DNA of 50,015 nt from an uncultured Alphaproteobacteria bacterium. Its GTDB lineage: Bacteria; Pseudomonadota; Alphaproteobacteria; Rhodobacterales; Rhodobacteraceae. The notes under the pieces were generated by a model. That model ran no database searches. It was not told where the DNA came from and saw nothing but the letters and a program-made list of their open reading frames with translations. The DNA lies in assembly GCA_902537235.1 (NCBI GenBank), contig CACBAO010000011.1, positions 1-50,015 on the forward strand. The letters run 5' to 3'. The translations under genes and the position numbers were made by a program. Below, in pieces: positions 5,698-24,969 of this stretch. The stretch's first letter is position 1; each line of letters opens with the position of its first letter.

Positions 5698-6948
5698 ATG
5701 AAATATTCTGGAATTAAAGTCTTATGGGAAGGATTAAGAGGTAACATGGGTTGGAAACCCTTGTGGAGGAACCCCGATCCGAAAAAGAGTTACGACATAA
5801 TAATAGTTGGTGGAGGTGGGCACGGCTTAGCAACGGCCTATTATCTCGCAGAGGAATTTAAAATTACTAATATCGCAGTTGTTGAAAAAGGCTGGCTTGG
5901 ATCTGGAAACATAGGTAGGAATACAACGATCATACGATCTAACTACCTATTACCCCAAAACCAACCCTTTTATGAGTTCTCTCTAAAACTTTGGGAAAAT
6001 TTGGAGCAAGAATTAAATTATAATTCAATGGTAAGTCAGAGGGGTGTTTTAAATATCTTTCATTCAGATAGTCAAAGAGACGCTTTTGTAAGGCGCGGCA
6101 ATGCGATGCTTATGTCAGGGGCGGATGCCTCACTATTAGGAGTAAACGATCTAAAAAAAATGGTTCCTTTTCTAGATTTTCAGAATTCTAGGTTTCCCAT
6201 TAAGGGTGGTTTATGGCAGCCAAGAGGAGGAACTGTAAGGCATGATGCAGTAGCATGGGGTTATGCTAAAGAAGCGGACTCACGTGGCGTTGATATAATA
6301 GAAAATTGTGAGGCAACTAATTTCTTGGTCAAAAATGGACGCTGCTATGGAGTTGAAACTACAAAGGGAGTAATTAAAAGTAAAAAGGTTGGAGTCTGCG
6401 TTGCTGGATCATCAAGTCAAGTAATGGGCAAGATTGGAATAAACCTACCTATAGAAAGTCATGTTTTGCAAGCTTTTGTATCGGAAGGCTTGAAACCTGT
6501 AATTCCAGGAGTAATTACATTTGGAGCTGGTCATTTTTATGTGAGCCAATCTAATAAGGGTGGATTAGTTTTTGGAGGTGACATTGATGGCTATAACTCC
6601 TACGCACAGAGAGGAAACCTACCGGTAATAGAAGATGTGTGTGAAGGAGGAGTGGCTCTGATGCCAATGATCGGACGCGCTAGGCTGCTTAGGGCTTGGG
6701 GGGGGGTAATGGATATGTCAATGGATGGATCCCCAATAATTGATAAAACAAACATAAAAAACTTATATTTTAACGGTGGCTGGTGCTATGGAGGCTTCAA
6801 AGCAACTCCAGCAAGTGGCTTTTGCTATGCACATCTTTTGGCAACTGGAACATCACATAATGATGCCAAAGATTTTTTGTTCAATAGATTTGAAAAAGGT
6901 AGGTTGATAGACGAAAAAGGCCAAGGCAACCAACCCAACTTGCATTAA
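5698..6948 (+). CDS. soxB: Sarcosine oxidase, beta subunit family
   Basis: A 416-residue flavoprotein of the heterotetrameric sarcosine oxidase beta family. It is the catalytic subunit that oxidises the N-methyl amine, passing the methyl carbon to tetrahydrofolate on the alpha subunit. IIIVGGGGHG (about 34-43) is the FAD-binding Rossmann loop. The WQPRGGTVRHDAV segment carries His182, in the position of the His that holds covalent FMN in characterised enzymes. AWGGVMDMSMDGSPII and NGGWCYGGFKATPASG are typical of the substrate half. It is first in a tight soxBDAG set, so the family is not in doubt. Substrate could be sarcosine, dimethylglycine or a related N-methyl compound; the sequence alone does not decide. 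Confidence 0.93.
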   Translation: MKYSGIKVLWEGLRGNMGWKPLWRNPDPKKSYDIIIVGGGGHGLATAYYLAEEFKITNIAVVEKGWLGSGNIGRNTTIIRSNYLLPQNQPFYEFSLKLWENLEQELNYNSMVSQRGVLNIFHSDSQRDAFVRRGNAMLMSGADASLLGVNDLKKMVPFLDFQNSRFPIKGGLWQPRGGTVRHDAVAWGYAKEADSRGVDIIENCEATNFLVKNGRCYGVETTKGVIKSKKVGVCVAGSSSQVMGKIGINLPIESHVLQAFVSEGLKPVIPGVITFGAGHFYVSQSNKGGLVFGGDIDGYNSYAQRGNLPVIEDVCEGGVALMPMIGRARLLRAWGGVMDMSMDGSPIIDKTNIKNLYFNGGWCYGGFKATPASGFCYAHLLATGTSHNDAKDFLFNRFEKGRLIDEKGQGNQPNLH

Positions 6949-6962
6949 AATGAGGATAAAAA

Positions 6963-7247
6963 ATGCTTATTGACCATCCATTACTAGGCCTTAGGGATTC
7001 ATCCGAATTCATTTATGTGGGTGATGCAAAGTTACTTAATAGACCAAATTGGAACAGTAAAAATTCTAAGACTAAATTTATAGATTATGGCTATTTACGC
7101 AAAAATCCTGCGGGTGTACACAAAGAGCTCTGGTACCATGAGCAAGGTGATAGATCTTGGCTTGTGGTAACAAGAAATACCGTAACCCATGAAATTTTAA
7201 AAGTTGAGCTAGCTCGATATCTTAAAAGAAAAGCAAATGCGAAATAG
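6963..7247 (+). CDS. soxD: Sarcosine oxidase, delta subunit family, zinc ligands lost
   Basis: A 94-residue delta subunit, recognised by LRDSSEFIYVG near the N-terminus, NPAGVHKELWYHEQG and the TRNTVTHEI motif, and by its place between soxB and soxA. In the characterised Corynebacterium enzyme delta binds zinc through two N-terminal Cys, His59 and Cys63. Here the CPxCG-like knuckle reads HPLLG (His5, Leu8); His59 is kept, but position 63 is Asp. At most two possible ligands remain, so the zinc site is probably gone while the fold is kept. An AGGA site precedes the ATG at 6963, and the gene overlaps soxA by 11 bases. This may mark a sub-type of the complex with a different substrate. Confidence 0.88.
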   Translation: MLIDHPLLGLRDSSEFIYVGDAKLLNRPNWNSKNSKTKFIDYGYLRKNPAGVHKELWYHEQGDRSWLVVTRNTVTHEILKVELARYLKRKANAK

Positions 7248-10173
7248 TTCACATCCAATAACAAATAAACAAAAAGTATCTTTTACTTTTAATGGGAAAA
7301 AATATTTCGGCTATAAAGGTGATACGTTAGCTTCTGCACTTATTGCCAACAACGTTAAAATTGTTGGAAGATCTTTCAAATATCATCGTCCAAGAGGCAT
7401 TTTTAGCGCCGGATCTGAAGAACCAAATGCATTGGTAGCGCTTGGAGATGGCCCATATAAAGAACCAAATACCAAAGCTACTAACGTAGAGTTATTTGAT
7501 GGTCTTAAAGGCTCGAGCCAAAATTTTTTAGGGTCAATTGATTTTGACCTCATGGCAATAAACGATTTGCTTAAAAATTTTATAGGTGCAGGTTTCTATT
7601 ACAAGACGTTTATGTGGCCTAGAAGATTTTGGGAAAAATTATATGAACCAATTATTAGAAGAGCCGCAGGTTTAGGGAAATTATCACTAAAGGCGGATCC
7701 GTCACAGTATGACAAGGGATATCTCCATTGTGACTTTCTAATAATTGGATCTGGTATCTCAGGGTTAATGTCTGCCCTTCTCTTGGCAGAAACAGGGAGT
7801 GAAGTTTTAATTGTCGAAGAAGATTTTATTTTTGGTGGAAGACTCAATTCAGAAAGGTTAGGTATTAATGGCAAACAATCTTCAATTTGGATTAGTCGAG
7901 CAGTAAAAAAATTAAAAAGTTTAAAAAATGTTCGAATCTTAAATAGAACCACTGTCTTTGCTGCTTTTGATCATGGTATATTCGCAGCCATCGAGAAAAA
8001 AACTGATCATATATTAGAAAAAAATTCCAAACCAAGACAGATAAATTGGAAGATATATACCAAACACTGCATCTTAGCGTCTGGAGCTATTGAGCGCTCT
8101 ATTGCATTTCCTCAAAACGATAGACCAGGTATAATGCTTGCAGGATCGGTAAGAACTTATGCGAATAGGTTTGGTGCCCACTACGGTCAAAAAATTGCAA
8201 TCTACACAAATAATGATGATGGTTGGAAGACAGCTGATGACCTAAAAAATATGGGGCTTGAAATTAAGGCAGTAATTGACACTCGGAAAGAAATTGAAGC
8301 GCCGTCTTCAAGCATTTCATCTTACCTGGGACAAACAATTACAAAGACATATGGAAGAAAAGGTATTAAAGCAATTAAGTTAAGTTCAGGATTAAAATTA
8401 AATGTTGACTGTCTTGCGGTATCAGGAGGGTGGAGTTCCAACATTCATTTGACATGCCATAAGCGAGGCAAACCCGTTTGGGATAATATTTACAAGAACT
8501 TTCTATCGGGGGATAATGCGCAAAAAGACAACATAATTCCTGTGGGGGCCGCGAGAGGAATATTTGAAATCCAAAATATCATTTCAGATACAAATAGAGT
8601 TATTTTATCTTTGATTAAAACAATTGGTTTGAGCATGCCTGACCGCATTACACTAATTAGCTCAAAAGAGCAGTATAGCTGCTCACTTGATCTTGTTAGT
8701 AGTTCAAATCCCTCTAATTCTTTTATAGATCTGCAAAACGATGTTACCCAAAAAGATATAGAGTTAAGTTTCAAAGAGGGCTTTAAAAGTGTGGAACATT
8801 TAAAGCGATATTCCACGTTGGGTATGGCAACCGATCAGGGGAAAACATCAAATATACTTGGGTTAGCGTCTATGGCTAAATTAAAGGGAATGAATATTTC
8901 TGAAGTCGGCACTACTATTTTTAGACCACCTTATGTACCTGTAGCGATATCGGCTTTTGCTGCACGTTCTCGGGGAAAGGACTTTAGACCAACCAGGTTA
9001 ACTCCATCACATAATGTAGCCTCCAAACGAAATGCAGTTTTTGTAGAGACAGGTAACTGGTTACGAGCTCAATGGTTTCCAGAAAAAGGAGAAACATTTT
9101 GGCGACAGAGTGTTGATAGGGAGGTTATACAGACGAGAAATTCTGTTGGAATTTGTGATGTAACTACACTTGGAAAAATCGATATTCAAGGGAAAGACTG
9201 CTCAGAGTTTTTAAATTTTGTATATACAAATGCCTTTGCTAAGTTACCTATCAATAGAGTACGTTACGGATTAATGTTAAGAGAAGATGGCGTTGCATAT
9301 GATGATGGGACTACTGCAAGGTTAGGTGAAAATCATTTTATAATGACGACTACGACCGCTAATGCCGCCTTAGTTCTTAGGAATTTAGAATTTGTTCGAC
9401 AGTGCCTCCTTCCAAATCTAGATGTTCATTTAATTTCTACTACAGATTCTTGGGCCCAGTATGCGGTCGCTGGACCAAACTCTCGCAGATTATTGCAAAA
9501 GATTGTCGATAAACCAAAAGATATAACTAATCAAAATTTTCCATTCATGGCTTGTTGTGAGCTCACCATCTGTGGCGGTATTATGGCAAGACTTTTTAGA
9601 ATTTCCTTCTCTGGAGAGTTAGCTTATGAAATTGCTGTTCCTACCCAATATGGAAACTCTTTATTTGACGCTCTTCTTTCAGAGGGCGAAGAGTTCAATG
9701 CTGTTCCTTATGGCACTGAAGCATTAGGAGTTATGCGAATAGAAAAAGGTCATGTGGCTGGTAATGAAATAAATGGGCAGACAAGCGCGCAGAACCTTGG
9801 CTTATCAAGGATGATATCAAAAAAAGCAGACAGCATAGGAAATATACTATCAGAGAGAGAAGGCTTCAATGGATCTAATATCGCAACCTTGTCTGGCTTT
9901 AAGCCTGTTCAACATAGCCAAAAGCTTGAAGCTGGATCACACCTGATTTCATTGGGCAAAACTCCCACAATGGAAAATGATGAAGGTTGGTTATCTTCAG
10001 TAGCGTTTTCTCCAACACTTGGTCACTACATAGGGTTAGGGTTTATAGAAAGCGGTCATACTAGGGTTGGTGAAAAGGTCTATGCCGTAAATCTACTTCA
10101 AAACAAAACCACGGAAGTAGAGATTGTTTCGCCCCACTTTGTAGATCCGGAAGGAATTAAACAACGTGGCTAA
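7237..10173 (+). CDS. soxA: Sarcosine oxidase, alpha subunit family
   Basis: A 978-residue alpha subunit, close to the usual 960-1000. Order of parts: an N-terminal ferredoxin-like segment (FTFNGKKYFGYKGDTLASAL; FKYHRPRGIFSAGSEEPN), a pyridine-nucleotide/flavin Rossmann domain with GSGISG at 171-176, and a C-terminal GcvT-like folate-binding domain from about residue 600 (WFPEKGETFWRQSVDREV; RYGLMLREDGVAYDDGT). The folate domain captures the oxidised methyl group as 5,10-methylene-tetrahydrofolate and so protects the cell from formaldehyde. The start overlaps soxD by 11 bases and the end overlaps soxG by 8, implying coupled translation and fixed subunit ratios. No disrupted motif is apparent. 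Confidence 0.94.
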   Translation: MRNSSHPITNKQKVSFTFNGKKYFGYKGDTLASALIANNVKIVGRSFKYHRPRGIFSAGSEEPNALVALGDGPYKEPNTKATNVELFDGLKGSSQNFLGSIDFDLMAINDLLKNFIGAGFYYKTFMWPRRFWEKLYEPIIRRAAGLGKLSLKADPSQYDKGYLHCDFLIIGSGISGLMSALLLAETGSEVLIVEEDFIFGGRLNSERLGINGKQSSIWISRAVKKLKSLKNVRILNRTTVFAAFDHGIFAAIEKKTDHILEKNSKPRQINWKIYTKHCILASGAIERSIAFPQNDRPGIMLAGSVRTYANRFGAHYGQKIAIYTNNDDGWKTADDLKNMGLEIKAVIDTRKEIEAPSSSISSYLGQTITKTYGRKGIKAIKLSSGLKLNVDCLAVSGGWSSNIHLTCHKRGKPVWDNIYKNFLSGDNAQKDNIIPVGAARGIFEIQNIISDTNRVILSLIKTIGLSMPDRITLISSKEQYSCSLDLVSSSNPSNSFIDLQNDVTQKDIELSFKEGFKSVEHLKRYSTLGMATDQGKTSNILGLASMAKLKGMNISEVGTTIFRPPYVPVAISAFAARSRGKDFRPTRLTPSHNVASKRNAVFVETGNWLRAQWFPEKGETFWRQSVDREVIQTRNSVGICDVTTLGKIDIQGKDCSEFLNFVYTNAFAKLPINRVRYGLMLREDGVAYDDGTTARLGENHFIMTTTTANAALVLRNLEFVRQCLLPNLDVHLISTTDSWAQYAVAGPNSRRLLQKIVDKPKDITNQNFPFMACCELTICGGIMARLFRISFSGELAYEIAVPTQYGNSLFDALLSEGEEFNAVPYGTEALGVMRIEKGHVAGNEINGQTSAQNLGLSRMISKKADSIGNILSEREGFNGSNIATLSGFKPVQHSQKLEAGSHLISLGKTPTMENDEGWLSSVAFSPTLGHYIGLGFIESGHTRVGEKVYAVNLLQNKTTEVEIVSPHFVDPEGIKQRG

Positions 10174-10726
10174 ACTAGTGCTTAAAAGAGAAAAGCCCCT
10201 AAATGGCTATTCCAAAGTCATAAATAAAATAAAAATTGCTGAGTATAAATTCGACAGTCTTATATCGCTTGCAATTCCATTAAAAAGAGAAAGAAAATGT
10301 AAAATAAATTTCAAGAATTCCTTGGGAGAACCAATGCCAAATATTGAAAATTCAATCATCAATAAAAGTGGTATTCTAGGTTTTAGAATTGGTCTTGATT
10401 TACTTTTCATTTGTAATCCATCGCATTCGTCATTTGCAAAAAAAACTGTCCCATTGTTAAAACAAGCTTTTTACATAACCGACCAAACCGGAGGGTGGTG
10501 TGGGGTTAAAGTTGATGGGGATAGAGTCATTGAGATGTTAGAGCGAATTTGTCCTCTTAATTTATCTCTTAAAAGTTTTGCGCTTGGAGATGTTAAAAGA
10601 ACTATTATGGATCAGTTAAATATGATTATATTTAGAGAGACAGAAAAAAAATTTATATTGTTCTCGCCAAGCTCTTCTTCTGGTTCATTCCTTAAATCTA
10701 TTGAGACATCTTCGAGAAATATTTAA
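10166..10726 (+). CDS. soxG: Sarcosine oxidase, gamma subunit family
   Basis: A 186-residue protein assigned to the poorly conserved gamma subunit by position directly after soxA and by the motif series ITDQTGGWCGVKVDGDRV, LERICPLNL, LGDVKRTIMDQL and the Ser-rich end SPSSSSGSFLKS. It resembles a GcvT-like half domain and is structural in the known tetramer. The GTG start at 10166 has GAAGGAA 10 bases upstream and overlaps the soxA stop. Its N-terminal half is Lys/Ile-rich and diverged, as expected for this AT-rich genome. Confidence 0.85.
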   Translation: MAKLVLKREKPLNGYSKVINKIKIAEYKFDSLISLAIPLKRERKCKINFKNSLGEPMPNIENSIINKSGILGFRIGLDLLFICNPSHSSFAKKTVPLLKQAFYITDQTGGWCGVKVDGDRVIEMLERICPLNLSLKSFALGDVKRTIMDQLNMIIFRETEKKFILFSPSSSSGSFLKSIETSSRNI

Positions 10727-10742: not shown

Positions 10743-12419
10743 ATGAAAGTCAAGTCTGATATCGAAATCGCAAGAGAGGCAAATAAGCTTCCTATAAAAG
10801 AGGTAGCAAAAAAATTAGGTATAGAAGACGAAGATTTGATACCCTTTGGGCATGATAAAGCAAAAGTATCAGATCAATTTATTAGATCGGTAAAAAATAA
10901 TCAAAATGGTAAGCTAATTTTAGTAACAGCTGTAAATCCGACACCCGCTGGTGAAGGTAAGACTACTACTACCGTAGGACTCGGAGATGGGCTTTGCGCA
11001 TTAGGTAAAAGAGCAGCTATATGCATTCGCGAAGCATCTTTAGGACCTTGCTTTGGTATGAAAGGCGGAGCTGCTGGCGGAGGGTTAGCACAAGTTGTGC
11101 CTATGGAAGAAATGAATTTACACTTTACTGGAGACTTTCACGCAATTACTAGTGCTCATAACCTTTTAGCAGCAATGATAGACAACCATATATATTGGGG
11201 TAACGAGCAAAATATTGACCTCCGAAGAGTTGTTTGGCGACGGGTAATGGATATGAATGATAGAGCGCTTAGAGACGTAGTCACAAGCCTGGGAGGTGTC
11301 GCTAATGGATATCCAAAGCAATCAGGATTTGATATCACGGTAGCTTCTGAAGTAATGGCAATTTTATGTTTAGCTAATGATCTTTCAGATCTCAGAAAAA
11401 GATTAGGTGAAATAATCGTTGCGTATAGAAAAGATCGAACTCCAGTTTTTTGCAAAGATATTAAAGCAGATGGAGCAATGACCGTACTCTTACAACAAGC
11501 TATGCAACCCAATATCGTTCAAACATTAGAAAATAATCCTGCATTTGTTCATGGAGGACCTTTTGCTAATATTGCCCATGGTTGCAATTCTGTTATCGCT
11601 ACAAAAACCGCTTTAAAGATAGCTAACTATGTAGTAACCGAAGCGGGTTTCGGAGCCGACCTTGGCGCAGAAAAATTTGTTAATATAAAGTGTAGGAAAG
11701 CTGGGTTAAAGCCTGATGCTGCAGTAATCGTTGCCACAGTTAGGTCTATGAAAATGAACGGTGGAATAATTTCCAAAAATGATCTGAGCACCGAAAATAT
11801 TCAAGCTGTGCAACAAGGGTGTGCAAACCTTGGAAGACATATTGAAAATGTAAAATCATTTGGGATACCAGTAGTTGTTGCAATAAACCACTTTGTTAGC
11901 GATACAAATGCCGAGATTGAAGCGCTCAGACGGTTTGTAGCTGATAAGGGTACGGAAGCTTTTGTCTGTAAACATTGGGCAGAGGGTTCTACTGGAATCC
12001 TTCCTCTCGCCAATAAGGTTGTTGAGATTGCAGAAAACAAAAGTAAATTTGCTTACACATACAAAGACGATTTGCCTTTAATTGAAAAAATCGAAAGAGT
12101 CGCTAAAAAAATATATAGAGCTGATGAAGTTCTTGCGAATAAGTCAATTAGGGATCAGCTACAGTTATGGGAAAATGATGGTTATAGTAATCTCCCTATT
12201 TGTATGGCGAAAACCCAATATAGCTTTACTACAGATCCTAACAGAAGGGGTGCGCCAAACGGGCACGCAATACCAATAAGAGAGGTTAGACTGTCGGCAG
12301 GGGCTGGTTTCATTGTTGTTATTTGTGGAGAAGTTATGACAATGCCTGGACTCCCCAAAGTTCCAAGCGCGGAGGCCATAATGCTCAATAAAAAAGGCGA
12401 GGTTGAGGGCTTATTTTAA
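10743..12419 (+). CDS. fhs: Formate-tetrahydrofolate ligase
   Basis: A 558-residue enzyme interconverting formate + ATP + THF and 10-formyl-THF. The ATP loop [11 protein letters not shown] is at about 66-76, and [20 protein letters not shown] and [13 protein letters not shown] match the substrate sites. Length is normal. A GGGAG ribosome site precedes the ATG at 10743, 16 bases after soxG. Behind the sox genes and before folD, it most likely runs in the oxidative direction: methylene-THF from demethylation is converted by FolD to 10-formyl-THF and by Fhs to formate with ATP formed. It can also supply formyl groups for purines. Confidence 0.97.
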
Positions 12420-12435
12420 AAAGTCGAGGAAAGTA

Positions 12436-13329
12436 ATGAATGAAATTATTGACGGAAAAAAGTTTTCACAAACTATACGCACCAAAGTAAAAAATTATGT
12501 GGATGTCATAAAGGAAAGACATGGGGTAACTCCAGGTTTAGCAGTAATACTTGTTGGAGAGGACCCCGCAAGCCAAGTATACGTGAGAAATAAAGGAAAG
12601 CAAACCTTAGAAGTTGGCATGAATTCATATGAGCATAAGCTTGAAGCATCGACTTCTTCCGATGTATTACTCAACCTTATAGAAAAATTAAATAAAGATG
12701 TGAATGTACATGGGGTTTTATGTCAACTACCTTTACCCGACCACTTGAATGAAAAAGAAGTGATTAATTCTATCGATCCAAAAAAAGATGTGGATGGATT
12801 TCACATATCAAATGTTGGTCTTCTAAATACGGGTCAAAAGTCAATGATCCCCTGTACGCCCTTAGGGTGTTTATTATTACTTAAAGACAGGCTAGGAGAC
12901 CTTTCTGGTAAAAATGCAGTGATAATAGGAAGATCAAATATAGTTGGTAAGCCGATGGCTAATTTACTTTTACAGGAAAATTGTACTGTAACCATAGCTC
13001 ACTCTCGAACAGAGAATATAGAAACTATATGTGCGCAAGCTGATATTATCGTAGCCGCGGTAGGAAGGCCTGAGATGATTAAAAAAGAATGGGTAAAGCC
13101 TGGAGCTACAGTTATAGATGTTGGAATAAACCGAGTAACAAAAAATATTGATGGAGATGAAAAAACTACTTTGGTGGGCGACGTTTGTTTTACTGATATG
13201 GCTGGTTTAGTAGCCGGCGTTACACCTGTACCTGGTGGAGTAGGGCCAATGACTATAGCTTGTCTTTTAGCAAATACTGTTACTGCATGCTATAGATCAC
13301 AAGACCTATCTGACCCAGAGTTTACATAA
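12436..13329 (+). CDS. folD: Bifunctional methylene-THF dehydrogenase/methenyl-THF cyclohydrolase
   Basis: A 297-residue FolD, the usual length. It oxidises 5,10-methylene-THF to methenyl-THF with NAD(P)+ and hydrolyses that to 10-formyl-THF. Signatures are VYVRNKGKQ (catalytic Tyr and Lys), [25 protein letters not shown] (dinucleotide loop) and the C-terminal [12 protein letters not shown] placed the start at ATG 12436, which has CGAGGAAAG just upstream, instead of an in-frame ATG at 12403 that would overlap fhs. The gap to fhs is 16 bases. It links the methylene-THF made by the sox complex to Fhs. Confidence 0.96.
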
Positions 13330-13406: not shown

Positions 13407-13661
13407 TTGAAAAACATAACAACCCAAGATAGCTTTTTAAAGCTTGCCCTCCGAAAAAGTGTAATAAGAAGAGCTTTAAGGATTGCTCTAATCGTTGGTT
13501 GTATCCTTGCCCTAATAAACCATGGTGACAGAATAGTTTTTCAGGATATGAAATCAGTCGATTGGTTTAAAATTCTTTTAACTTTCTGCGTGCCGTACTG
13601 TGTCTCTACTATTTCATCTGTTTTGGCAATCAAACGAGAAATTGAGATAAATGAGTCCTAA
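13407..13661 (+). CDS. nrtS: NrtS-type nitrate/nitrite transporter
   Basis: An 84-residue membrane protein resembling the NrtS family, small nitrate/nitrite transporters first described in cyanobacteria. The first hydrophobic helix contains GCILALINHGDRIVF and the second LLTFCVPYCVSTISSVLAI; the NxGD and PYCVST motifs are the reason for the call. It is thought to work as an oligomer in the inner membrane. No ATG is in frame before the first helix. The most upstream usual start is TTG at 13407, just after an in-frame stop at 13395-13397, so the exact start is uncertain. Along with the urea genes in this window it suggests attention to nitrogen scavenging. No nitrate or nitrite reductase is nearby. 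Confidence 0.72.
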   Translation: MKNITTQDSFLKLALRKSVIRRALRIALIVGCILALINHGDRIVFQDMKSVDWFKILLTFCVPYCVSTISSVLAIKREIEINES

Positions 13662-13703
13662 AAAAAAAAGTTTTCTTTATAATTATCTCTTACAGAGGTT
13701 TTG

Positions 13704-14558
13704 ATGAAAAAAATGATATTGCTTACAGGTGCAGGAGGTAGATTGGGTTCTTATCTTAGAGAGCCACTTTCGAACATCTGCAGTACACTTATTTCGACTG
13801 ACATAAAAGAAGATATTGGAAAACTGAATGAAAATGAAAAGTATTTTTCAGCAGATTTATCTAATTTTGATCAAATATGTGCCCTGACAAAAGGCGTTTC
13901 GCTTATCTGCCATTTTGGCGCTTTAGTAGACGAAGTGCCATTTAACGATATGTTAGGTGCTAATTTCATTGGCTCTTATAATATTTGGGAAGCAGCTCGC
14001 CTAAATAACTGCAAGAGGGTAGTTTACGCAAGTTCTATACATGCAGTCGGCATGTATAAAAGGATAAAAACATTAAGGCCGAAAACTGCACACCGGGCAG
14101 ATGGTTTTTATGGGCTATCAAAGTGTTTTACTGAAAATTTGGCTCGTATGTATTACGATAAATGTGGTATTGAAGCAGTGTGCTTACGAATTGCTACATG
14201 TTCACCGGTAACAACACAGAGAAGTTTAACAAGTTGGCTCTCATATGATGACTTAGTTCAATTGGTTATGAGAGCAATTGATACTGCGCACACCGGTTAT
14301 TCAGTTATTTATGGAGTATCAGATAATGATCGTTCTAATTTGAGCAACATAGACTCTGGGCATATTGGTTTCAAACCCAAAGATAATGCTGAGATTTACG
14401 CGAATAAAATTTTTGCGGGTGACTTATCAGAAGAATTAGAAGACGAAGGCAATAAATTACATGGGGGTGCATTTGCATCAACTGATTTAGGAGTGAGCGC
14501 GATGGATAAAATGAAAATAGTTTATTCGCATAAGGGGGATGTACCAGATGAAAGATAA
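13704..14558 (+). CDS. Uronate-dehydrogenase-like NAD-dependent SDR
   Basis: A 284-residue extended short-chain dehydrogenase. The NAD loop GAGGRLG is at 9-15, the catalytic Ser111 in YASSIHAVG, and Tyr136/Lys140 in YGLSK. Spacing and flanks resemble uronate dehydrogenase (Udh), which oxidises hexuronates to aldarolactones, but substrate-pocket residues cannot be judged by eye. The ATG at 13704, with CAGAGG upstream, is preferred over the TTG at 13701. Its end overlaps the start of the ThDP-enzyme gene by 11 bases, so it is the first gene of a six-gene operon ending in carnitine-type enzymes. In that setting the substrate may be an alcohol or hemiacetal intermediate and not a sugar acid. Confidence 0.75.
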   Translation: MKKMILLTGAGGRLGSYLREPLSNICSTLISTDIKEDIGKLNENEKYFSADLSNFDQICALTKGVSLICHFGALVDEVPFNDMLGANFIGSYNIWEAARLNNCKRVVYASSIHAVGMYKRIKTLRPKTAHRADGFYGLSKCFTENLARMYYDKCGIEAVCLRIATCSPVTTQRSLTSWLSYDDLVQLVMRAIDTAHTGYSVIYGVSDNDRSNLSNIDSGHIGFKPKDNAEIYANKIFAGDLSEELEDEGNKLHGGAFASTDLGVSAMDKMKIVYSHKGDVPDER

Positions 14559-16293
14559 TAATATGGTTAGAGGAGGACAGCTTTTAGCTAAATCTTTCAA
14601 AGAGAAAGGAATAACCCATGTATTTACACTTGCAGGTGGGTTTTGTAACCCTGCACTTGAGGGTTTCATGAATCATCAAATACCTGTGATAAATTGCCCA
14701 CATGAACAAATTGCAGGTCATTTGGCAGACGGCCATACGAGACTTTCGAGAAGACCATCTGTTTGTTTGGTTGGTCCAGAGGGATTTGCGAATGCTATAC
14801 CTGCCATGATGGAGGCGTGGGGGGAACGATCTCCTGTAATTTTTGTTACAGGCTCATCCACTCTTAAAAAGCAAGGTGCTGGAGGATTTAAGGAAATAGA
14901 TGACGTTTCTATCGCAAGACCGCTTACAAAATACAGTGCATCAATAACAGATGGAAATAGAATTCCTGAGTTCGTGGATAGAGCTTGGAGAATAGCGACA
15001 AGTGGTTATCCAGGCCCGGTCCATCTAAGTATGCCTGTAGACATAATGTTTTCTTCCTTTGATGAATGCGCGTCAGATATAGAGCGTCCATTTACTAGAA
15101 AAGTACCAAAAACTCATAAAGCATGGCCTGAGCCCTCAGCACTAAATGAGATAATAGGTATTATAAAGTCCTCAAAAAAACCCATAATTATCGGTGGACA
15201 CGGGATATGGTGGTCAAAAAATGAAGATCTGTTAAAGCAAGTGGGTGATGAAATCAAAATACCAATTTTTAATGTGCCATATCACCAAAAATTATTAAAT
15301 GAAAATTGCAAGGCCTTTCTAGGGCTTGCCGATGTGCATCAGTACCATCCTTCAAAGTTTGCGTTTAATGAGTCTGACTGCATTATAATGGTTGGAGGTC
15401 GCTTGGATAATCAAATGAATTTCGGCAATCCACCATTATTTCCAGCGACTTCGAGGTTAATATGTGTCAACGGATCGCATGAAGAAATAGAATTTAATAG
15501 AGCGGCTGACCACTTGCTTTTGAGTGATCCTGGAGCTTTTTTTGAATGTCTACTAAAGTCATACAACGGAGATAAATTCTCTTTAGAAAAAGATTGGCTA
15601 GCTAAAAATATTGAGGAAAGAAAAAAATGGGTGACTGCGTCGCTAAACAATCTTGTTGAAACAACAAATTCTCCAGCATGGAGTGGTGGAAAAATTCACC
15701 CTTTAGAGCTTTCTCTTTCGGTACAAAAGTGTATGACAGACGAAGATATCTTGGTTTTTGATGGAGGTAATACACACTTTTGGTCGGAAATTGCTGTTAA
15801 TATAATGGCCTCCAATGGGTTAGCTCTTTCTCAAATAATGCACCCTGGTTCCTATTCAATGCTAGGTGTTGGAGTATCATTTGCACTGTCGGCAAAGCGG
15901 CTCAATAAAGAAAAGACGATTGTATTAATTTCTGGAGATGGTGCTTTCCTTAGTGGGGGTTTATCCATTGAGACAGCCTTTCAAGAAAACCTGCCGATTG
16001 TTATAATTATCGATAACAATGGTGGTTTAGATTGTATATCGCAACAGCAGGAAAGATTGTTCAAGGATGGTTCTCATTTTGCAACAGATTTCAGAGATAT
16101 ACCATTTCATGGAATGTTTGAGGGAATGGGGGGTTATGGAGAGCTGGTAACTCACAAAGATGAGATTCAAGGAGCTGTAAGGCGGGCAATAGACAGCGGG
16201 AAACCTGCTTGTGTTAACGTAAAAACAAGAGGCGTTATCAGCCCAATTGTTGCGGCTACAAGCGATAAAAGAGATAAGGCTTCTATAGAATAA
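14548..16293 (+). CDS. ThDP-dependent enzyme, acetolactate-synthase-like family
   Basis: A 581-residue enzyme of the pyruvate oxidase/acetolactate synthase fold. The N-terminal pyrimidine-binding domain keeps the activating Glu53 in PHEQIAGHLADGHTR. A central domain is at about 190-350. The C-terminal pyrophosphate domain has GDGAFLSGG (463-471) through Asn490-Asn491, the ThDP/Mg motif. Retained Glu53 argues against glyoxylate carboligase, where it is Val. The specific reaction (2-keto acid decarboxylation, carboligation, 2-hydroxyacyl-CoA cleavage or hydrolysis) is not recognisable. ATG at 14548 is chosen because AAGGGGG lies about 9 bases upstream; the ATG at 14539 is too close to it. It overlaps the SDR and is 2 bases from the next gene. 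Confidence 0.82.
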   Translation: MKDNNMVRGGQLLAKSFKEKGITHVFTLAGGFCNPALEGFMNHQIPVINCPHEQIAGHLADGHTRLSRRPSVCLVGPEGFANAIPAMMEAWGERSPVIFVTGSSTLKKQGAGGFKEIDDVSIARPLTKYSASITDGNRIPEFVDRAWRIATSGYPGPVHLSMPVDIMFSSFDECASDIERPFTRKVPKTHKAWPEPSALNEIIGIIKSSKKPIIIGGHGIWWSKNEDLLKQVGDEIKIPIFNVPYHQKLLNENCKAFLGLADVHQYHPSKFAFNESDCIIMVGGRLDNQMNFGNPPLFPATSRLICVNGSHEEIEFNRAADHLLLSDPGAFFECLLKSYNGDKFSLEKDWLAKNIEERKKWVTASLNNLVETTNSPAWSGGKIHPLELSLSVQKCMTDEDILVFDGGNTHFWSEIAVNIMASNGLALSQIMHPGSYSMLGVGVSFALSAKRLNKEKTIVLISGDGAFLSGGLSIETAFQENLPIVIIIDNNGGLDCISQQQERLFKDGSHFATDFRDIPFHGMFEGMGGYGELVTHKDEIQGAVRRAIDSGKPACVNVKTRGVISPIVAATSDKRDKASIE

Positions 16294-16295
16294 TA

Positions 16296-16637
16296 ATGCC
16301 CTCAATAAGTACACATGTATTAAATTCCGAAAACGGTACTCATGTCGCTGGTCTAACAGTTACCCTTACACATATTGAGCCTGATGGAGCAAAAAAGAAT
16401 ATATTTTCTAATAAAACTGATGCGGGGGGACGCATTTTAGAGAGCTTTGACTTTCTCCTAAAAAGCAATGAAATTTTTGAGATTGAATTTAAACTATCAG
16501 ATATTCATATGAAGAAAAAAGGTATATACTGTAGAGATATAATTTTCAGGGTATCTTTCAGTTCAGAAAATGAAAAATTCCATATTCCTATCATCGTATC
16601 TCAAAACGGCGCCTCTACTTGGTGGTCGGGAGAGTAA
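16296..16637 (+). CDS. Transthyretin/HIUase-like protein lacking the YRGS end
   Basis: A 113-residue protein of the transthyretin-related (5-hydroxyisourate hydrolase) family. It opens with STHVLNSENG and has TDAGGR and FHIPIIVS in the expected places. The family's catalytic trio is present as His7, Arg46 and His96. However, the C-terminal tetrapeptide that defines HIUase (YRGS after the final Ser-Thr) is replaced by WWSGE. No uricase, OHCU decarboxylase or allantoinase gene is in the window. It is 2 bases from the ThDP gene and 3 from the dmdA-like gene, so it belongs to this operon. A hydrolase acting on a different cyclic or lactone-like substrate is plausible, but this is inference. Confidence 0.78.
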   Translation: MPSISTHVLNSENGTHVAGLTVTLTHIEPDGAKKNIFSNKTDAGGRILESFDFLLKSNEIFEIEFKLSDIHMKKKGIYCRDIIFRVSFSSENEKFHIPIIVSQNGASTWWSGE

Positions 16638-16640
16638 AAA

Positions 16641-17768
16641 ATGAACATTCAAAATAAACTGAATTTCTCTAGAAGGATCAGAAGAACGCCTTTTACTACC
16701 TCTGTTGAAAAGCATGGAGTAACAGGATTTTCCGTTGTGAACCATACACTACTTCCTAAGTCATTTCAAAACTCAATTGAAGATGATTATTTGCACCTAC
16801 AAAAACATGCTCAAATTTGGGACGTTGGCTGTCAGAGACAAGTTGAAATTAAAGGTAAAGACTCGCTCAAACTTATTGAGTTAATGACGCCAAGATCAAT
16901 CTCAAAACTTCAACCAGGAAAATGTCTTTACATTCCCTTGACCGATGAAAATGGTGGCATAATCAATGATCCTATTCTTATCAAAATAAGTGCTGATCAT
17001 TATTATCTATCCGTTGCAGACTCAGATGTGTTATTGTGGGCTAGAGGATTAGCTATTGGTTTTGGCTTAAACGTAAGAATAAGAGAACCTGACGTGTGGC
17101 CTTTGGCAGTACAAGGACCAAAAGCTGCTGATGTTTTGGCCAAAGTTTTTGGTGAGCGCATATATTCAATTAAAAAATTCAATTTTGACTATTTTTCACT
17201 TGATGGCTCTTCTCAACTAATAGCCAAAACCGGTTACTCTAGAATTGGTGGTTTTGAAATCTATCTGTCTCGACCAGAACTCGGTTCATATCTATGGGAA
17301 ACAATTTTAGGAGCTGGTAGATCAGAAAATATAAGGCCAGGTTCTCCAAACATAATAGATCGAGTTGAAGCAGGATTATTATCCTATGGTAATGAAATGA
17401 CCGTTGAGAACACACCACTGGAATGTAATATGGATAAGTTCTTGGATATATATAAAGAGGCAGATTATATCGGGAAAAAAGTTCTCCAGCGGCAGATCAG
17501 ATATGGCATTAAAAGACGTATAAAAGGTGTTATTTATAAAGGGCCTAAACTTCCAACAATATCAAGACCACTACAAGTTTTTGATATAGATAAAAGAACT
17601 ATAGTCGGAAGCTTAACTTCAGGAGCATTCTCACCTCATTTTGAGAGTAATATTGGGGTTGGCATGGTCAAATATGGATACTGGGATAATAACAAAAAAA
17701 TATTAGTTAATATCGCTGACCAGGAGTTTAGAGAAGGATTAATCAAAGACCTTCCTTTAATTCAATGA
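16641..17768 (+). CDS. dmdA: DmdA/GcvT-family THF-dependent demethylase
   Basis: A 375-residue protein of the GcvT fold, close to DMSP demethylase DmdA in length (about 370) and along the whole sequence. Matches include RRIRRTPFTTSVEKHGVT, VNHTLLPKSF, IWDVGCQRQVEIKG, LADSDVLLW-like SVADSDVLLWARG, PLAVQGPKAADVLAKVFG, TGYSRIGGFEIY and IDRVEAGLLSYGNEMT. DmdA moves one methyl of dimethylsulfoniopropionate to THF, giving methylmercaptopropionate and 5-methyl-THF. The pocket cannot be read without a structure, so a glycine-betaine or related onium demethylase is possible. No dmdB, dmdC or dmdD is near. It lies between the TTR-like gene (3 bases) and the keto-acid cleavage enzyme (7 bases), whose predicted product is an onium acid. 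That context fits a demethylation step. Confidence 0.75.
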   Translation: MNIQNKLNFSRRIRRTPFTTSVEKHGVTGFSVVNHTLLPKSFQNSIEDDYLHLQKHAQIWDVGCQRQVEIKGKDSLKLIELMTPRSISKLQPGKCLYIPLTDENGGIINDPILIKISADHYYLSVADSDVLLWARGLAIGFGLNVRIREPDVWPLAVQGPKAADVLAKVFGERIYSIKKFNFDYFSLDGSSQLIAKTGYSRIGGFEIYLSRPELGSYLWETILGAGRSENIRPGSPNIIDRVEAGLLSYGNEMTVENTPLECNMDKFLDIYKEADYIGKKVLQRQIRYGIKRRIKGVIYKGPKLPTISRPLQVFDIDKRTIVGSLTSGAFSPHFESNIGVGMVKYGYWDNNKKILVNIADQEFREGLIKDLPLIQ

Positions 17769-17775
17769 GGTAAGA

Positions 17776-18681
17776 ATGGCTCTGGCTATTAATAAAAATG
17801 TATTTATTACCTGTGCTGTGACTGGTTCGGGAAGTTCACAAGATAAAAGTCGAGAAGTGCCGAGGTCGCCAAAAGAAATTGCAGATAGTGCGATTGACGC
17901 AGCTAAAGCTGGAGCGGCTATTGTACATTGTCATGTAAGAGATCCCGAAACCGGTATACCAAGCCGTCGCATTGATCTCTATGAAGAAGTAACAAAAAGA
18001 ATCAGAGACTCCGAAACCGACGTCGTTTTGAACTTAACTACCGGAATGGGAGGCGATATTTATCTTGGTCTCGACGCTGAAAACCCACTGCCACTTAAAG
18101 AACCAGAAACAGATATGATAGGGGCATCGGAGAGAATAATGCATCTTGTTACATGTAAGCCAGAAATCTGCACTTTAGATTGTGGCACAATGAATTTTGC
18201 TGAGGATAACTATGTAATGACCAACACGCCGGGAATGCTAATGGCGATGGCTTCAAAGATCACCAATTTAGGTATTCTTCCTGAGATTGAAGTTTTTGAT
18301 ACAGGACATCTGTGGCTGGCAAAAAAACTTGTTAACGAAGGTCTGATAAGAGATCCCGTTCTTTTACAGCTTTGTATGGGTATACCGTGGGGCGCACCAA
18401 ATGATATAAATACGTTTCTGTCTCTAGTGAATAATATTCCAAAAGACTGGACTTGGTCTGCATTTTCTATAGGGCAATTTCAGATCCCTTATGTTGCAAT
18501 GGCTACTCTGGCAGGAGGAAATGTCAGAGTGGGGTTGGAAGATAATATTTGGCTGGAAAAAGGAAGGTTAGCAAAGAATTACCAGTTGGTTGAAAAAGCT
18601 GTAAATGTCATCGAAAACTTCGGCAGTAAGGTCATGTCACCGAAAGAAGTTCGTGACAAGCTTCGTTTGAAAAAACAATAA
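17776..18681 (+). CDS. cdhC: Beta-keto acid cleavage enzyme (BKACE), 3-dehydrocarnitine-type
   Basis: A 301-residue zinc-dependent BKACE protein (DUF849). The His51-x-His53 pair in IVHCHVRDPETG and the Glu in VRVGLEDNIW are family metal ligands; NLTTGMGG and PEICTLDCGTMNF are also typical. The family condenses a 3-keto acid with acetyl-CoA and splits it into acetoacetate and a new acyl-CoA. Adjacent to a carnitine-dehydrogenase/thioesterase fusion (2-base gap), it is best read as CdhC, which turns 3-dehydrocarnitine into betainyl-CoA. BKACE members differ widely in substrate, so a sulfonium or other 3-keto acid is possible. An ATGAGGTAAGA stretch before the ATG at 17776 provides the ribosome site. 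Confidence 0.83.
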   Translation: MALAINKNVFITCAVTGSGSSQDKSREVPRSPKEIADSAIDAAKAGAAIVHCHVRDPETGIPSRRIDLYEEVTKRIRDSETDVVLNLTTGMGGDIYLGLDAENPLPLKEPETDMIGASERIMHLVTCKPEICTLDCGTMNFAEDNYVMTNTPGMLMAMASKITNLGILPEIEVFDTGHLWLAKKLVNEGLIRDPVLLQLCMGIPWGAPNDINTFLSLVNNIPKDWTWSAFSIGQFQIPYVAMATLAGGNVRVGLEDNIWLEKGRLAKNYQLVEKAVNVIENFGSKVMSPKEVRDKLRLKKQ

Positions 18682-18683
18682 TT

Positions 18684-20150
18684 ATGGAAAATTTAAGTGT
18701 GACATGTATAGGAGCTGGCGTAATAGGGTCTGGTTGGGCTGCCCGCTTATTGGTTAATGGAATAAATGTAAACGTTTTTGATAAAAGCCCAGAAAGCTAC
18801 AATAGAACACGATTATCCGTTGAAAGAGCTAAAAAATATTTCTCTCAATTGACTAAGGCCCCTTTAAGAGAAATGGGCAGTCTTACTTTTGACAAGTCTT
18901 TGGAAGATGCTCTAAAAAGGTCCACTTATATAATTGAAAGTCTTCCGGAAAATTTACAATTGAAGCATAAACTTTATAAAGAAATTGAGCACATTTCAAA
19001 TAATTCAATTATTTTGTCGTCTACTTCAGGTTTCAAGCCCACTGACCTTCAAAAGCATATGAAAAATCCTCAAAGTTTGCTCGTTACACACCCTTTCAAC
19101 CCAGTGTATCTGATGCCTTTGGTTGAGCTAGTTCCAGGCCAAGAAAGAGATCAGAAAATTATTGATGATGTGCACCATTTATTGGAATACATAGGCATGG
19201 AACCTATAATAATCAAAAAAGAAATAGATGCTTTTGTCGCTGACAGGATGCTAGAGGCGATGTGGCGCGAAGCATTGTGGCTTATAAAAGATGATATTTG
19301 CACTACTAAGGAGCTAGACGATATTATCACGTCTAGCTTTGGAATACGATTTGCTCAAATGGGAATGTTTGAAAGCTACCGTATTGCTGGAGGAGATAAA
19401 GGCATGCGTCATTTCCTTGATCAATTTGGTCCTGCACTAAAATGGCCTTGGTCCAGATTGACAGATGTACCAGAGTTTAATTCTGATTTAATAGATAAAA
19501 TTTGTTCTCAATCAGATGCTCAATCAGATATGTATAGCATCTCCGAGTTAGAAGATATTAGGGACAAAAACTTGGTTGAATTACAGAAAGCTCTTCGCAA
19601 CAACCGTTGGGGATCTGGACGAATACTAGCGAGCTATGAGAAAGATCTTTTCGATGAACAATCAAAAGAGGCAGAAAAAGCTAGTGGAAAAATAAGTAGT
19701 GACCTGCTTATTACCTACACAAAAACGATACCTCCTGAATGGGCAGATTATAATGGCCATATGACAGAATATCGTTATCTCAACTGTTTTGGCGATGCCT
19801 CAGATGCTGTAATGCTCCATATAGGCTGTGATAGAGCCTATATCGAAGCTGGTAATTCCTATTTCACCGTTGAGACAAATATTAGGCACCTAAACGAGCT
19901 TAAGGTAGGGCAAGAAGTATATATAGAAACTAAAGTTTTAAAGGGAACTGAGAAAAAATTGCACGTTTTTCATATGTTGAAAAATACAGAAGGAGAACTT
20001 TTTGCTACCGGTGAACATCTTCTTCTACACGTTTCTTTAAAAACTAGAAAAACTTGTCCAGCAAGTAAACCTCTTATCAACAAATTGATAGAACTTCAAA
20101 AGCAGCATCAAGAAATAAGTGTTCCATTAGAGCCGAAAATAATTGTTTAG
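18684..20150 (+). CDS. cdhAB: L-carnitine dehydrogenase fused to thioesterase
   Basis: A 488-residue two-domain enzyme. Residues 1 to about 320 form a 3-hydroxyacyl-CoA-dehydrogenase-type NAD domain with GAGVIGSGWA (10-19), SSTSG and HPFNPVYLMPLVELV (His136 region). These are the form seen in L-carnitine dehydrogenase, which acts on free 3-hydroxy acids. Residues about 342-488 form a hotdog thioesterase with WADYNGHMTEYRY (Asp355). Rhizobial carnitine dehydrogenases of about 490 residues share this layout. Predicted chemistry: oxidation of L-carnitine to 3-dehydrocarnitine, then, after the BKACE step, hydrolysis of betainyl-CoA to glycine betaine. It is last in the operon and runs convergently into the AhpD-like gene, 28 bases away, without an obvious terminator. 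Confidence 0.86.
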   Translation: MENLSVTCIGAGVIGSGWAARLLVNGINVNVFDKSPESYNRTRLSVERAKKYFSQLTKAPLREMGSLTFDKSLEDALKRSTYIIESLPENLQLKHKLYKEIEHISNNSIILSSTSGFKPTDLQKHMKNPQSLLVTHPFNPVYLMPLVELVPGQERDQKIIDDVHHLLEYIGMEPIIIKKEIDAFVADRMLEAMWREALWLIKDDICTTKELDDIITSSFGIRFAQMGMFESYRIAGGDKGMRHFLDQFGPALKWPWSRLTDVPEFNSDLIDKICSQSDAQSDMYSISELEDIRDKNLVELQKALRNNRWGSGRILASYEKDLFDEQSKEAEKASGKISSDLLITYTKTIPPEWADYNGHMTEYRYLNCFGDASDAVMLHIGCDRAYIEAGNSYFTVETNIRHLNELKVGQEVYIETKVLKGTEKKLHVFHMLKNTEGELFATGEHLLLHVSLKTRKTCPASKPLINKLIELQKQHQEISVPLEPKIIV

Positions 20151-23259: not shown

Positions 23260-24969
23260 TCAATATAAAAAATATCGCTGTGCCATAGGTAATTCTTTAG
23301 CGGGCTCACAAGTTATTAATTCTCCATCTAGCCGTACTTCATAAGTTTCAGGATCCACCTCAATCTCTGGACATCGATCGTTCAGCTTCATACTTTTTTT
23401 GGATATATTTCTTGTATTCTCTATGGGAACAATTTTTTTCCTTAAAGCAAGCTCATCTAGGCCTTTATTTTCACTTGCCGATTGAGAAACAAATATGATT
23501 GAGTTTGTCTCCATTGACCTTCCATACGCACCGAACATCGGTCTGCTATATACCGGTTGAGGAGTTGGGATAGACGCGTTGGGATCTCCCATTTGAGCAC
23601 AGGTAATAACACCACCTAACAGTACCATTTCAGGCTTTACACCAAAAAAAGCTGTATTCCATAAAACGAAGTCAGCTCTTTTTCCAATTTCTATACTGCC
23701 TATATGATTTGACATACCATGTGCTATCGCTGGATTAATGGTATATTTCGCTATATATCTTTTTATGCGTAGATTGTCATTCTCACCCTTTTCCTCGGAC
23801 AACCTTCCTCGCTGCTTTTTCATTTTGTCGGCTGTTTGCCATGTTCGGATAATAACTTCTCCAACGCGGCCCATTGCTTGGCTATCGGAAGCAATAATGG
23901 ACATAGCACCAACATCATGAAGTATATCCTCTGCTGCAATTGTTTCTTTTCTAATCCTGCTTTCTGCAAAAGCGACATCCTCAGGTATAGATTTGTCAAG
24001 GTGATGACATACCATTAACATATCCAGATGCTCTTCAATAGTATTGACGGTATATGGTCTGGTTGGGTTGGTCGAGGAGGGAATAACATTTTCTTCTCCA
24101 GCGAGCTTAATAATATCCGGCGCGTGTCCACCCCCAGCTCCCTCAGTATGGAAAGCATGTATTGTTCGTCCCCCAATCGCCTTAATAGTATTTTCTACAA
24201 ATCCACTCTCATTGAGAGTATCGGTATGAATCATTACTTGCACATCTAATTCGTTAGCTACCTTTAAACAGCAATCAATAGCTCCTGGCGTAGTGCCCCA
24301 GTCCTCATGAAGCTTAAGAGAAGAAGCGCCTGCCCTGACTTGTTCCCTTAGAGCCTCGGGTAGACTTGCATTCCCTTTCCCAGCGAAAGATAAATTCATA
24401 GGAAAGGCATCGGCTGATTGCAGCATTTTCCCAATGTTCCAAGGACCTGGGGTGCATGTGGTTGCAAGTGTTCCATGCGCAGGACCAGTTCCGCCCCCTA
24501 ACATGGTAGTGAGTCCCGAATGAAGTGCATCTTCAATTTGTTGGGGACAAATAAAATGAATATGAGCATCCATTCCACCAGCTGTCAGAATTTTTCCTTC
24601 CCCAGCGATGACCTCTGTTGCTGGACCAACTATTATATTTACTCCACTTTGAATGTCTGGGTTTCCCGCTTTTCCTATAGAGTGGATCCTTCCATCTTTT
24701 ACACCGATATCTGCTTTGTATATTCCTAAGTAATCGATTACTAATGCATTAGTTACGACTAAATCAACTGCTCCATCTGCTCTCGTAACTTGGCTCTGTC
24801 CCATTCCATCTCTTATGACTTTACCACCACCGAACTTTACTTCCTCTCCATATACAGTGTAGTCGTGTTCAACCTCTGCAAATAGTTCAGTATCAGCCAA
24901 TCTCACTCTGTCTCCAGTTGTTGGCCCAAAAATGCTTGCATACTTTTCTCTAGAAACTTTCTGTGCCAT
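23260..24969 (-). CDS. ureC: Urease alpha (catalytic) subunit
   Basis: A 569-residue catalytic subunit hydrolysing urea to ammonia and carbamate. All active-site residues are in place: His136 and His138 ([10 protein letters not shown]), carbamylated Lys219 (LKLHEDWG), His248 and His274 as nickel ligands, catalytic His322 in CHHLD and Asp362 in SDSQAMG. The length is standard. The ATG at 24967-24969 shares a TAATG overlap with the ureB stop. It forms the trimer-based urease with UreA and UreB in the cytoplasm, fed by the Urt transporter encoded upstream on the same strand. Confidence 0.98.

Follow-up and report, generated by a model that had tools for sequence, protein, structure and literature searches.

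Several described systems share parts with the locus reported here. In the mandelate pathway, a flavin mononucleotide (FMN)-dependent 2-hydroxyacid dehydrogenase is paired with a thiamine diphosphate (ThDP)-dependent decarboxylase. 5-Hydroxyisourate hydrolase (HIUase), of the transthyretin (TTR) family, has the catalytic residues His9, Arg47, and His98 and the C-terminal signature YRGS, and 4-dimethylsulfonio-2-hydroxybutyrate (DMSHB) is an intermediate in the synthesis of dimethylsulfoniopropionate (DMSP), the substrate of the demethylase DmdA. The adjacency of dmdA and acuI has been reported in an excerpt of PMC3338564. With these systems, and with the genes that convert carnitine to glycine betaine, we compared a six-gene block at positions 13704-20150 of a 50,015-nucleotide stretch of DNA (the window), which represents contig C11 of a 1.92-Mb, 81% complete genome (G000) of an uncultured member of the Rhodobacteraceae. 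Our reading, to which we give slightly less than an even chance, is that the block joins two catabolic modules in one presumed transcription unit of a pelagic rhodobacteral genus. Held with the same reserve is the proposal that the first of them, module A, represents an undescribed tetrahydrofolate (THF)-dependent route by which a methylated 2-hydroxy acid is broken down, joined here to genes for the conversion of carnitine to glycine betaine (module B). The ORF list of the window confirms six plus-strand open reading frames (ORFs) across the block:

13704-14558, plus strand: short-chain dehydrogenase/reductase (SDR), uronate-dehydrogenase-like; ATG at 13704, alternative start TTG at 13701; nearest solved structure 3rft
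14539-16293, plus strand: ThDP enzyme, module A; nearest solved structures 2-hydroxyacyl-CoA lyase, oxalyl-CoA decarboxylase, and benzaldehyde lyase
16296-16637, plus strand: transthyretin/HIUase-family (TTR-like) protein, module A; His-Arg-His kept, C-terminal end different
16641-17768, plus strand: DmdA-like THF methyltransferase (GCV_T), module A; in a clade sister to canonical DmdA
17776-18681, plus strand: beta-keto acid cleavage enzyme (BKACE; PF05853), module B; cleavage of 3-dehydrocarnitine presumed
18684-20150, plus strand: carnitine 3-dehydrogenase fused to a 4HBT-type thioesterase (CDH-TE; PRK07531), module B

The ThDP ORF overlaps the end of the SDR gene by 20 bases, or by less if a later ATG serves as the start, and the gaps that follow the ThDP gene measure 2, 3, 7, and 2 bases in gene order. 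The first-pass annotation of this DNA had named the same six genes, described them as a tight plus-strand operon, and ascribed carnitine chemistry to the last two and DmdA kinship to the methyltransferase, all of which agrees with the family and model matches given here. Its suspicion that the SDR, ThDP, and TTR-like genes imply a further reaction also fits a module A that is conserved apart from the carnitine genes. Its proposal that all six genes serve a single carnitine or gonyol route, in contrast, was not supported by the comparison with other loci.

For this comparison, the 80 best ThDP loci, all with at least 66% identity, were kept from 535 relatives retrieved at a loose cut-off from the genome_contigs collection. 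The 80 loci are not independent, since 15 derive from the genus of the window (L086-L100), 11 from SAR11, and 21 from a group labelled Alphaproteobacteria only (L128-type). ORFs were called by the longest-ORF rule with a minimum of 80 amino acids; the TTR gene was skipped in 7 loci and recovered by profile, and the profile match was split over two frames in L105 and L134. Outside the genus (65 loci), the ThDP gene was directly followed by a TTR gene in all 64 testable cases (57 by ORF call and 7 by profile), a DmdA-like gene came after the TTR gene in 61 of 62, and a gene for an FMN 2-hydroxyacid dehydrogenase directly preceded the ThDP gene in 54 of 61. Of the 49 loci with 7.5 kb or more of upstream sequence, 36 encode a dipeptide-type binding protein, and an S51 peptidase is encoded in 17 of the 65. 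BKACE, in contrast, occurred in only 2 and CDH-TE in only 1 of the 65 loci. The ThDP-TTR-DmdA-like set accompanies the FMN enzyme, and often a dipeptide-type ATP-binding cassette (ABC) transporter, but rarely the carnitine genes, and this linkage marks module A as a unit distinct from module B. When the SAR11 and L128-type loci are set aside, the remaining 33 loci show TTR in 33 of 33 (27 by ORF call and 6 by profile), DmdA-like in 31 of 32, and FMN in 22 of 29, together with the binding protein in 10 of 23 and the S51 peptidase in 7 of 33. An example from the same family as the window is L168, from a roseobacter-family genome, in which an S51 peptidase, four ABC genes, FMN, ThDP, TTR, DmdA-like, and LysR genes stand in a row.

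The 15 loci of the genus have a different composition: SDR is present in all 15, its cluster having no member among the other 65 loci, the FMN gene never directly precedes the ThDP gene, and 13 of the loci carry BKACE and CDH-TE. The two loci without this pair, L090 and L100, lie on contigs that end before that point. Because the SDR gene accompanies all 15 loci and the BKACE and CDH-TE genes 13 of them, the six-gene arrangement is not a product of chance. The expectation raised at first that the same order should recur in other genomes is thus borne out within the genus, and the two modules are neighbors again in L101, but in the 65 loci from outside the genus the order is generally not kept.

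The ThDP gene was found with at least 81% identity in 18 of 22 genomes of the genus (own included). Among 39 genomes that represent other genera of the family, 3 (G054, G022, and G045) have it with 66-71% identity, and the best listed match among 40 genomes of other families reached 30%. A wider draw at E <= 1e-150 retrieved it from 2 of 398 genomes of the phylum and 4 of 292 of the order (own included), and a search of plasmids gave no match at 1e-60. By title, the 80 best loci include the 11 from SAR11 (Pelagibacterales) and others from SAR116, Rhodobacterales, Hyphomicrobiales, Rhodospirillales, and Comamonadaceae, with 44 labelled to class or phylum only. Across the family, order, and phylum draws the gene was thus seldom found, whereas marine single-cell and metagenome assemblies yielded it often; this contrast is a rough one.

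The DmdA-like protein of the window scored above the cut-off of the NCBIfam model for DMSP demethylases (PRK12486; 467 versus 410 bits), as did the operon members L069, L070, and L127 (505-551 bits). Its predicted structure (confidence score pLDDT, 88.4) superposes on DmdA of Pelagibacter ubique (3tfh) at a template modeling (TM) score of 0.92, with about 41% sequence identity; the operon proteins are 40-55% identical to the SAR11 enzyme. For the phylogeny, proteins of <300 or >469 amino acids were excluded and rows at least 85% identical to a kept row were thinned, which reduced 139 rows to 64; after addition of 3tfh and removal of the long-branch sequences L005 and L109_3301, 63 proteins remained. 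In this tree, 34 operon DmdA-like proteins formed one clade (support 97/93) and 19 canonical DmdA proteins a separate one (support 99/95). The operon clade is sister to the canonical clade and lies outside the group that holds 3tfh and the roseobacter dmdA-acuI genes; the kinship with DmdA suspected at the outset thus held, but the protein sits just outside DmdA proper. The canonical clade contains, in addition to 3tfh, two genes of the module A genomes G753 (SAR11) and G754, the DmdA encoded on contig C5 of the genome of the window, and a roseobacter-family gene (L028/L080) that is followed by an AcuI-like gene, named by reading its translation. In the tree that still held the two long-branch sequences, the protein of the window groups with the L069 and L125 lineages (support 91). 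Two positions distinguish the clades: where 3tfh has Tyr32, all 34 operon proteins carry Val and all 19 canonical ones Tyr, and at Glu63 all 34 operon proteins carry Gln, against Glu in 18 of the 19 canonical ones. The gene context differs as well, since the canonical roseobacter gene is linked to the AcuI-like gene, whereas the genes of the window type are linked to ThDP and TTR genes.

A further residue was considered as a marker of DMSP use. Trp197 of 3tfh, which we take to be equivalent to the residue published as W171, is replaced by Tyr in the gene of the window and also in most rows of the canonical clade; this marker was dropped, since the AcuI-linked roseobacter DmdA carries Tyr as well. 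The link of W171 to DMSP is made in an excerpt of PMC7487153.

We consider it improbable that the DmdA-like enzyme is no more than an additional DMSP demethylase. Its sister-clade position, model score, sequence identity, and shared fold argue for such a role, and it could be the DMSP enzyme in G755 and G756, where no canonical-clade DmdA was seen: of the eight module A genomes compared, G756 has the operon gene as its sole DmdA-like match and G755 has a second match outside the canonical clade. However, canonical-clade DmdA is also encoded in the genome of the window and in 5 of these 8 genomes (G753, G754, G757, G759, and G760; G758 is counted on neither side), the replacements of Tyr32 and Glu63 are fixed, and DMSP demethylation has no known step for the products of the ThDP, TTR, and FMN genes.

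Further DmdA-like genes occur in these loci. A second, divergent one lies upstream in 10 of 11 SAR11 and 20 of 21 L128-type loci; examples are L127:6892-8115 and L128:7543-8772, DmdA/GcvT-like genes upstream of the FMN gene that score below the DmdA cut-off and have GFT in place of GYS. In L184 (3518-5578), from the SAR116 genome G758, a gene for a different DmdA-like protein is followed directly by one for a BKACE. According to an excerpt of PMC12262181, dmdA is present across most of SAR116.

The FMN enzyme is nearest to lactate oxidase and (S)-mandelate dehydrogenase, and its gene stands beside the ThDP gene in most module A loci, as in mandelate-type pairs. The locus departs from such pairs in that the two genes are not adjacent in the window, in its additional TTR and DmdA-like partners, and in a ThDP enzyme that is nearer to 2-hydroxyacyl-CoA lyase and benzaldehyde lyase than to benzoylformate decarboxylase. 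In the genus, an unlinked FMN homologue was found in 18 of 22 genomes (45-50% group; G000:C1:150590-151693), and it falls inside the operon FMN enzymes in the tree, next to L069 and L125 (SH-aLRT 96). Since the DmdA-like protein of the window groups with the same two lineages, this suggests that the FMN gene is a core gene of module A that was relocated in the genus rather than replaced by the SDR gene. The SDR, which is akin to solved uronate dehydrogenases (3rft, 3.3e-52; 6mfh, 7.4e-50), was considered as a stand-in for the FMN enzyme, a candidate weakened by the unlinked gene of the operon type.

The ThDP enzyme scored below the cut-off in all 25 NCBIfam ThDP models shown (of 51), and with 232 bits against a cut-off of 600 it falls outside the 2-hydroxyacyl-CoA lyase model NF058623. 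The TTR-like protein was below both HIUase equivalog cut-offs (52.0 versus 87.45 bits and 36.1 versus 217 bits), but shares the fold family and the catalytic residues of HIUase. In an alignment of 73 sequences (2g2n numbering), His9 is kept in 72, Arg47 in 73, and His98 in 73, and the protein of the window has all three. Tyr111 is replaced by Trp in 73 of 73 sequences, and the commonest C-terminal ends, WWSK and WWSGE (the latter in the window), are unlike YRGS. This pattern fits an active hydrolase that would act on a substrate other than that of HIUase.

From the gene linkage, the family assignments, the phylogeny, and the conserved residues, we infer a possible chain of reactions for module A, in an order that is a guess. 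The substrate would be imported, in many of the other loci through the dipeptide-type ABC transporter, and a methyl group would be transferred to THF by the DmdA-like enzyme. The FMN enzyme would oxidize a 2-hydroxy acid to the 2-oxo acid, which the ThDP enzyme may decarboxylate or cleave at a C-C bond, as in the mandelate pathway, and the TTR-like protein might hydrolyze a cyclic or acyl intermediate. Both a sulfonium and a quaternary-ammonium substrate would be possible.

Several observations weigh against this chain. The predicted structure of the ThDP enzyme is of mediocre quality (pLDDT 77.9); Foldseek returns the same relatives for it at a TM score of about 0.5 and a root mean square deviation of about 16, and besides decarboxylases these nearest relatives include CoA-ester lyases and carboligases. 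The FMN gene of the genus is unlinked and only 43-48% identical to its best operon relatives; it and the ThDP gene each occur in 18 of the 22 genomes, which are incomplete, but together in only 15, and in 7 of 29 loci of the 33-locus set the FMN gene is missing next to the ThDP gene. The chain does not account for an amide- or peptide-like substrate, at which the S51 peptidase and the dipeptide-type transporter both hint; at the frequencies given above, neither of these two is general. The accessory genes vary by lineage, so that the substrate may vary too, and the renewed adjacency of the modules in L101 leaves room for a biochemical link between them.

Two classes of substrate can be named, each of them with little probability. 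DMSHB or a similar sulfonium hydroxy acid, a doubtful candidate, would unite the kinship with DmdA and the FMN and ThDP enzymes in a single chain, in which demethylation would give 4-methylthio-2-hydroxybutyrate, the FMN enzyme 4-methylthio-2-oxobutyrate, and the ThDP enzyme methional; a homocysteine S-methyltransferase-family gene beside module A in 20 loci, all L128-type, agrees with it. The TTR-like protein, the S51 peptidase, and the dipeptide-type transporter would be left unexplained, however, and the reading has no direct evidence. An equally unlikely substrate is a quaternary-ammonium hydroxy acid, such as the oxidized head group of a betaine lipid or another trimethylammonio hydroxy acid. 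It is suggested by the carnitine module of the window and by recurring choline- and betaine-type neighbors of module A, all below equivalog cut-offs, namely, BetA-like and betaine aldehyde dehydrogenase (BADH)-like proteins in the L128-type group, a GbcA-like Rieske protein in SAR116, and MttB-like proteins in several lineages. Such families are, however, common in these genomes anyway (four MttB-family genes in G000), and we know of no precedent for methyl transfer from an ammonium group to THF by the DmdA fold. Mycosporine-like amino acids, methylated ureides, homarine, arsenosugars, and methyl-histidine peptides were weighed from their chemistry alone, and nothing specific was found for them.

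Module B corresponds to known carnitine genes. CDH-TE exceeds the cut-off of the curated carnitine 3-dehydrogenase model PRK07531 (649 versus 592 bits), and it adjoins BKACE, a PF05853 member, as in the carnitine gene pair; the pair would convert carnitine to glycine betaine by way of 3-dehydrocarnitine and betainyl-CoA. In G022, an AraC/DJ-1 regulator, a BKACE 67% identical to that of the window, an SDR, and CDH-TE form a separate unit on contig C8, apart from module A on contig C2. In L101, an AraC/DJ-1 regulator lies between module A and BKACE/CDH-TE, whereas in the window the pair follows module A without such a regulator inside the block. CDH-TE of L101 is followed by acyl-CoA dehydrogenase, ADP-forming CoA ligase, and enoyl-CoA-hydratase-like genes, which we read as a putative gamma-butyrobetaine extension. 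At the place where other members of the genus have sox genes, the genus contig L097 carries three genes that cluster with genes of L101, two of them with its acyl-CoA dehydrogenase and ADP-forming CoA ligase and the third with its enoyl-CoA-hydratase-like gene. Among 14 module A genomes, 8 matched the fused CDH-TE over its full length, 5 matched the dehydrogenase part only (G753 and G754 among them), and 1 had no match.

These data leave a very small probability to the one-pathway proposal in its carnitine form, by which module B would supply glycine betaine and the DmdA-like enzyme would transfer a methyl group from it to THF, giving dimethylglycine, with the SDR, ThDP, and TTR-like proteins in a side step. 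The tight linkage in the genus, the second adjacency in L101, and the sarcosine oxidase next door favor it, but nearly all other loci examined carry module A without module B alongside, module B was not found in some genomes, and the ThDP and TTR-like proteins are given no role. Moreover, MttB-family genes in 22 of 22 and homocysteine S-methyltransferase (S-methyl_trans)-family genes in 21 of 22 genomes of the genus are other candidate glycine betaine demethylases, so that the DmdA-like enzyme is not needed for this role; a cobalamin-dependent glycine betaine route in marine bacteria is described in an excerpt of PMC12478193. Least probable of all is a gonyol route, in which module B would form DMSP from gonyol for demethylation by the DmdA-like enzyme: the dehydrogenase-BKACE-thioesterase logic would suit a 3-hydroxy onium acid, the enzyme is closely akin to DmdA, and four tested bacteria metabolized gonyol by routes that were not identified (excerpt of PMC7221440), but the genome has a canonical-clade DmdA on another contig (C5), the score of the fused enzyme lies above the cut-off of the carnitine model, and most module A loci have no module B alongside.

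The genes upstream of the block form a predicted cluster for the oxidation of sarcosine and one-carbon (C1)-THF units, which recurs in 11-14 of the 80 ThDP loci:

5698-6948, plus strand: SoxB, by model
7237-10173, plus strand: SoxA, named by reading the translation
10166-10726, plus strand: SoxG, named by reading the translation
10743-12419, plus strand: formate-THF ligase Fhs, named by reading the translation
12403-13329, plus strand: FolD, named by reading the translation

The methyl groups released by modules A and B could enter this route, and the proximity of module A, module B, and the C1 genes suggests their joint use in handling methyl groups that can pass to THF. Between SoxB and SoxA, an ORF of about 94 amino acids (6949-7236, plus strand) belongs to a cluster found in 11 loci and is probably SoxD, by its position and size. 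Between FolD and SDR lies an 84-amino-acid ORF (13407-13661, plus strand) that recurs across the loci of the genus, had no Pfam match at 0.001, and may open the operon; the first-pass annotation did not list it.

On the minus strand downstream of the block are an AhpD-like gene, assigned by model, and an enoyl-CoA-hydratase-like gene and a urease cluster, assigned by reading their translations. A match to the Rfam family 5'_ureB_sRNA (24528-24817, plus strand; 90.4 bits), antisense to the putative urease alpha subunit gene, may merely mirror conserved coding sequence. Elsewhere in the window, a LipJ-like gene (3065-4390, plus strand; below cut-off) encodes an alpha/beta hydrolase fused to an adenylate/guanylate cyclase domain, and an overlapping gene for a cyclic nucleotide-binding protein sits behind it. 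Promoter-like and terminator-like sites were not commoner than in shuffled sequences.

No description of the module A operon was found in the open-license PubMed Central literature, judged mostly by titles and the beginnings of abstracts and including papers on gonyol, homarine, carnitine, DmdA structure, betaine lipids, and DMSHB, and the module is apparently undescribed, whereas the carnitine pair is already known. Unrecognized demethylation routes are to be expected: an excerpt of PMC7221440, citing earlier work, states that DmdA does not recognize dimethylsulfonioacetate, infers an unrecognized demethylation route, and reports that bacteria use gonyol and dimethylsulfonioacetate by routes that were not identified. 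Nothing in our data links module A to dimethylsulfonioacetate specifically.

DmdA-type genes serve to estimate bacterial DMSP demethylation in the ocean. Because the standard NCBIfam model for DMSP demethylases scores proteins of the operon clade above its cut-off, surveys may count its members as dmdA, which could inflate such figures. We consider it possible, at odds somewhat short of even, that module A carries out the THF-dependent demethylation and C-C cleavage of an abundant methylated plankton metabolite other than DMSP in SAR11, SAR116, and pelagic rhodobacterals, with its demethylase being counted as dmdA. A sister clade of DmdA in a different operon points to a second methyl-bearing compound consumed by SAR11 relatives and their neighbors, and the near-invariant ThDP-TTR-DmdA-like linkage provides a small set of proteins through which this compound could be named.

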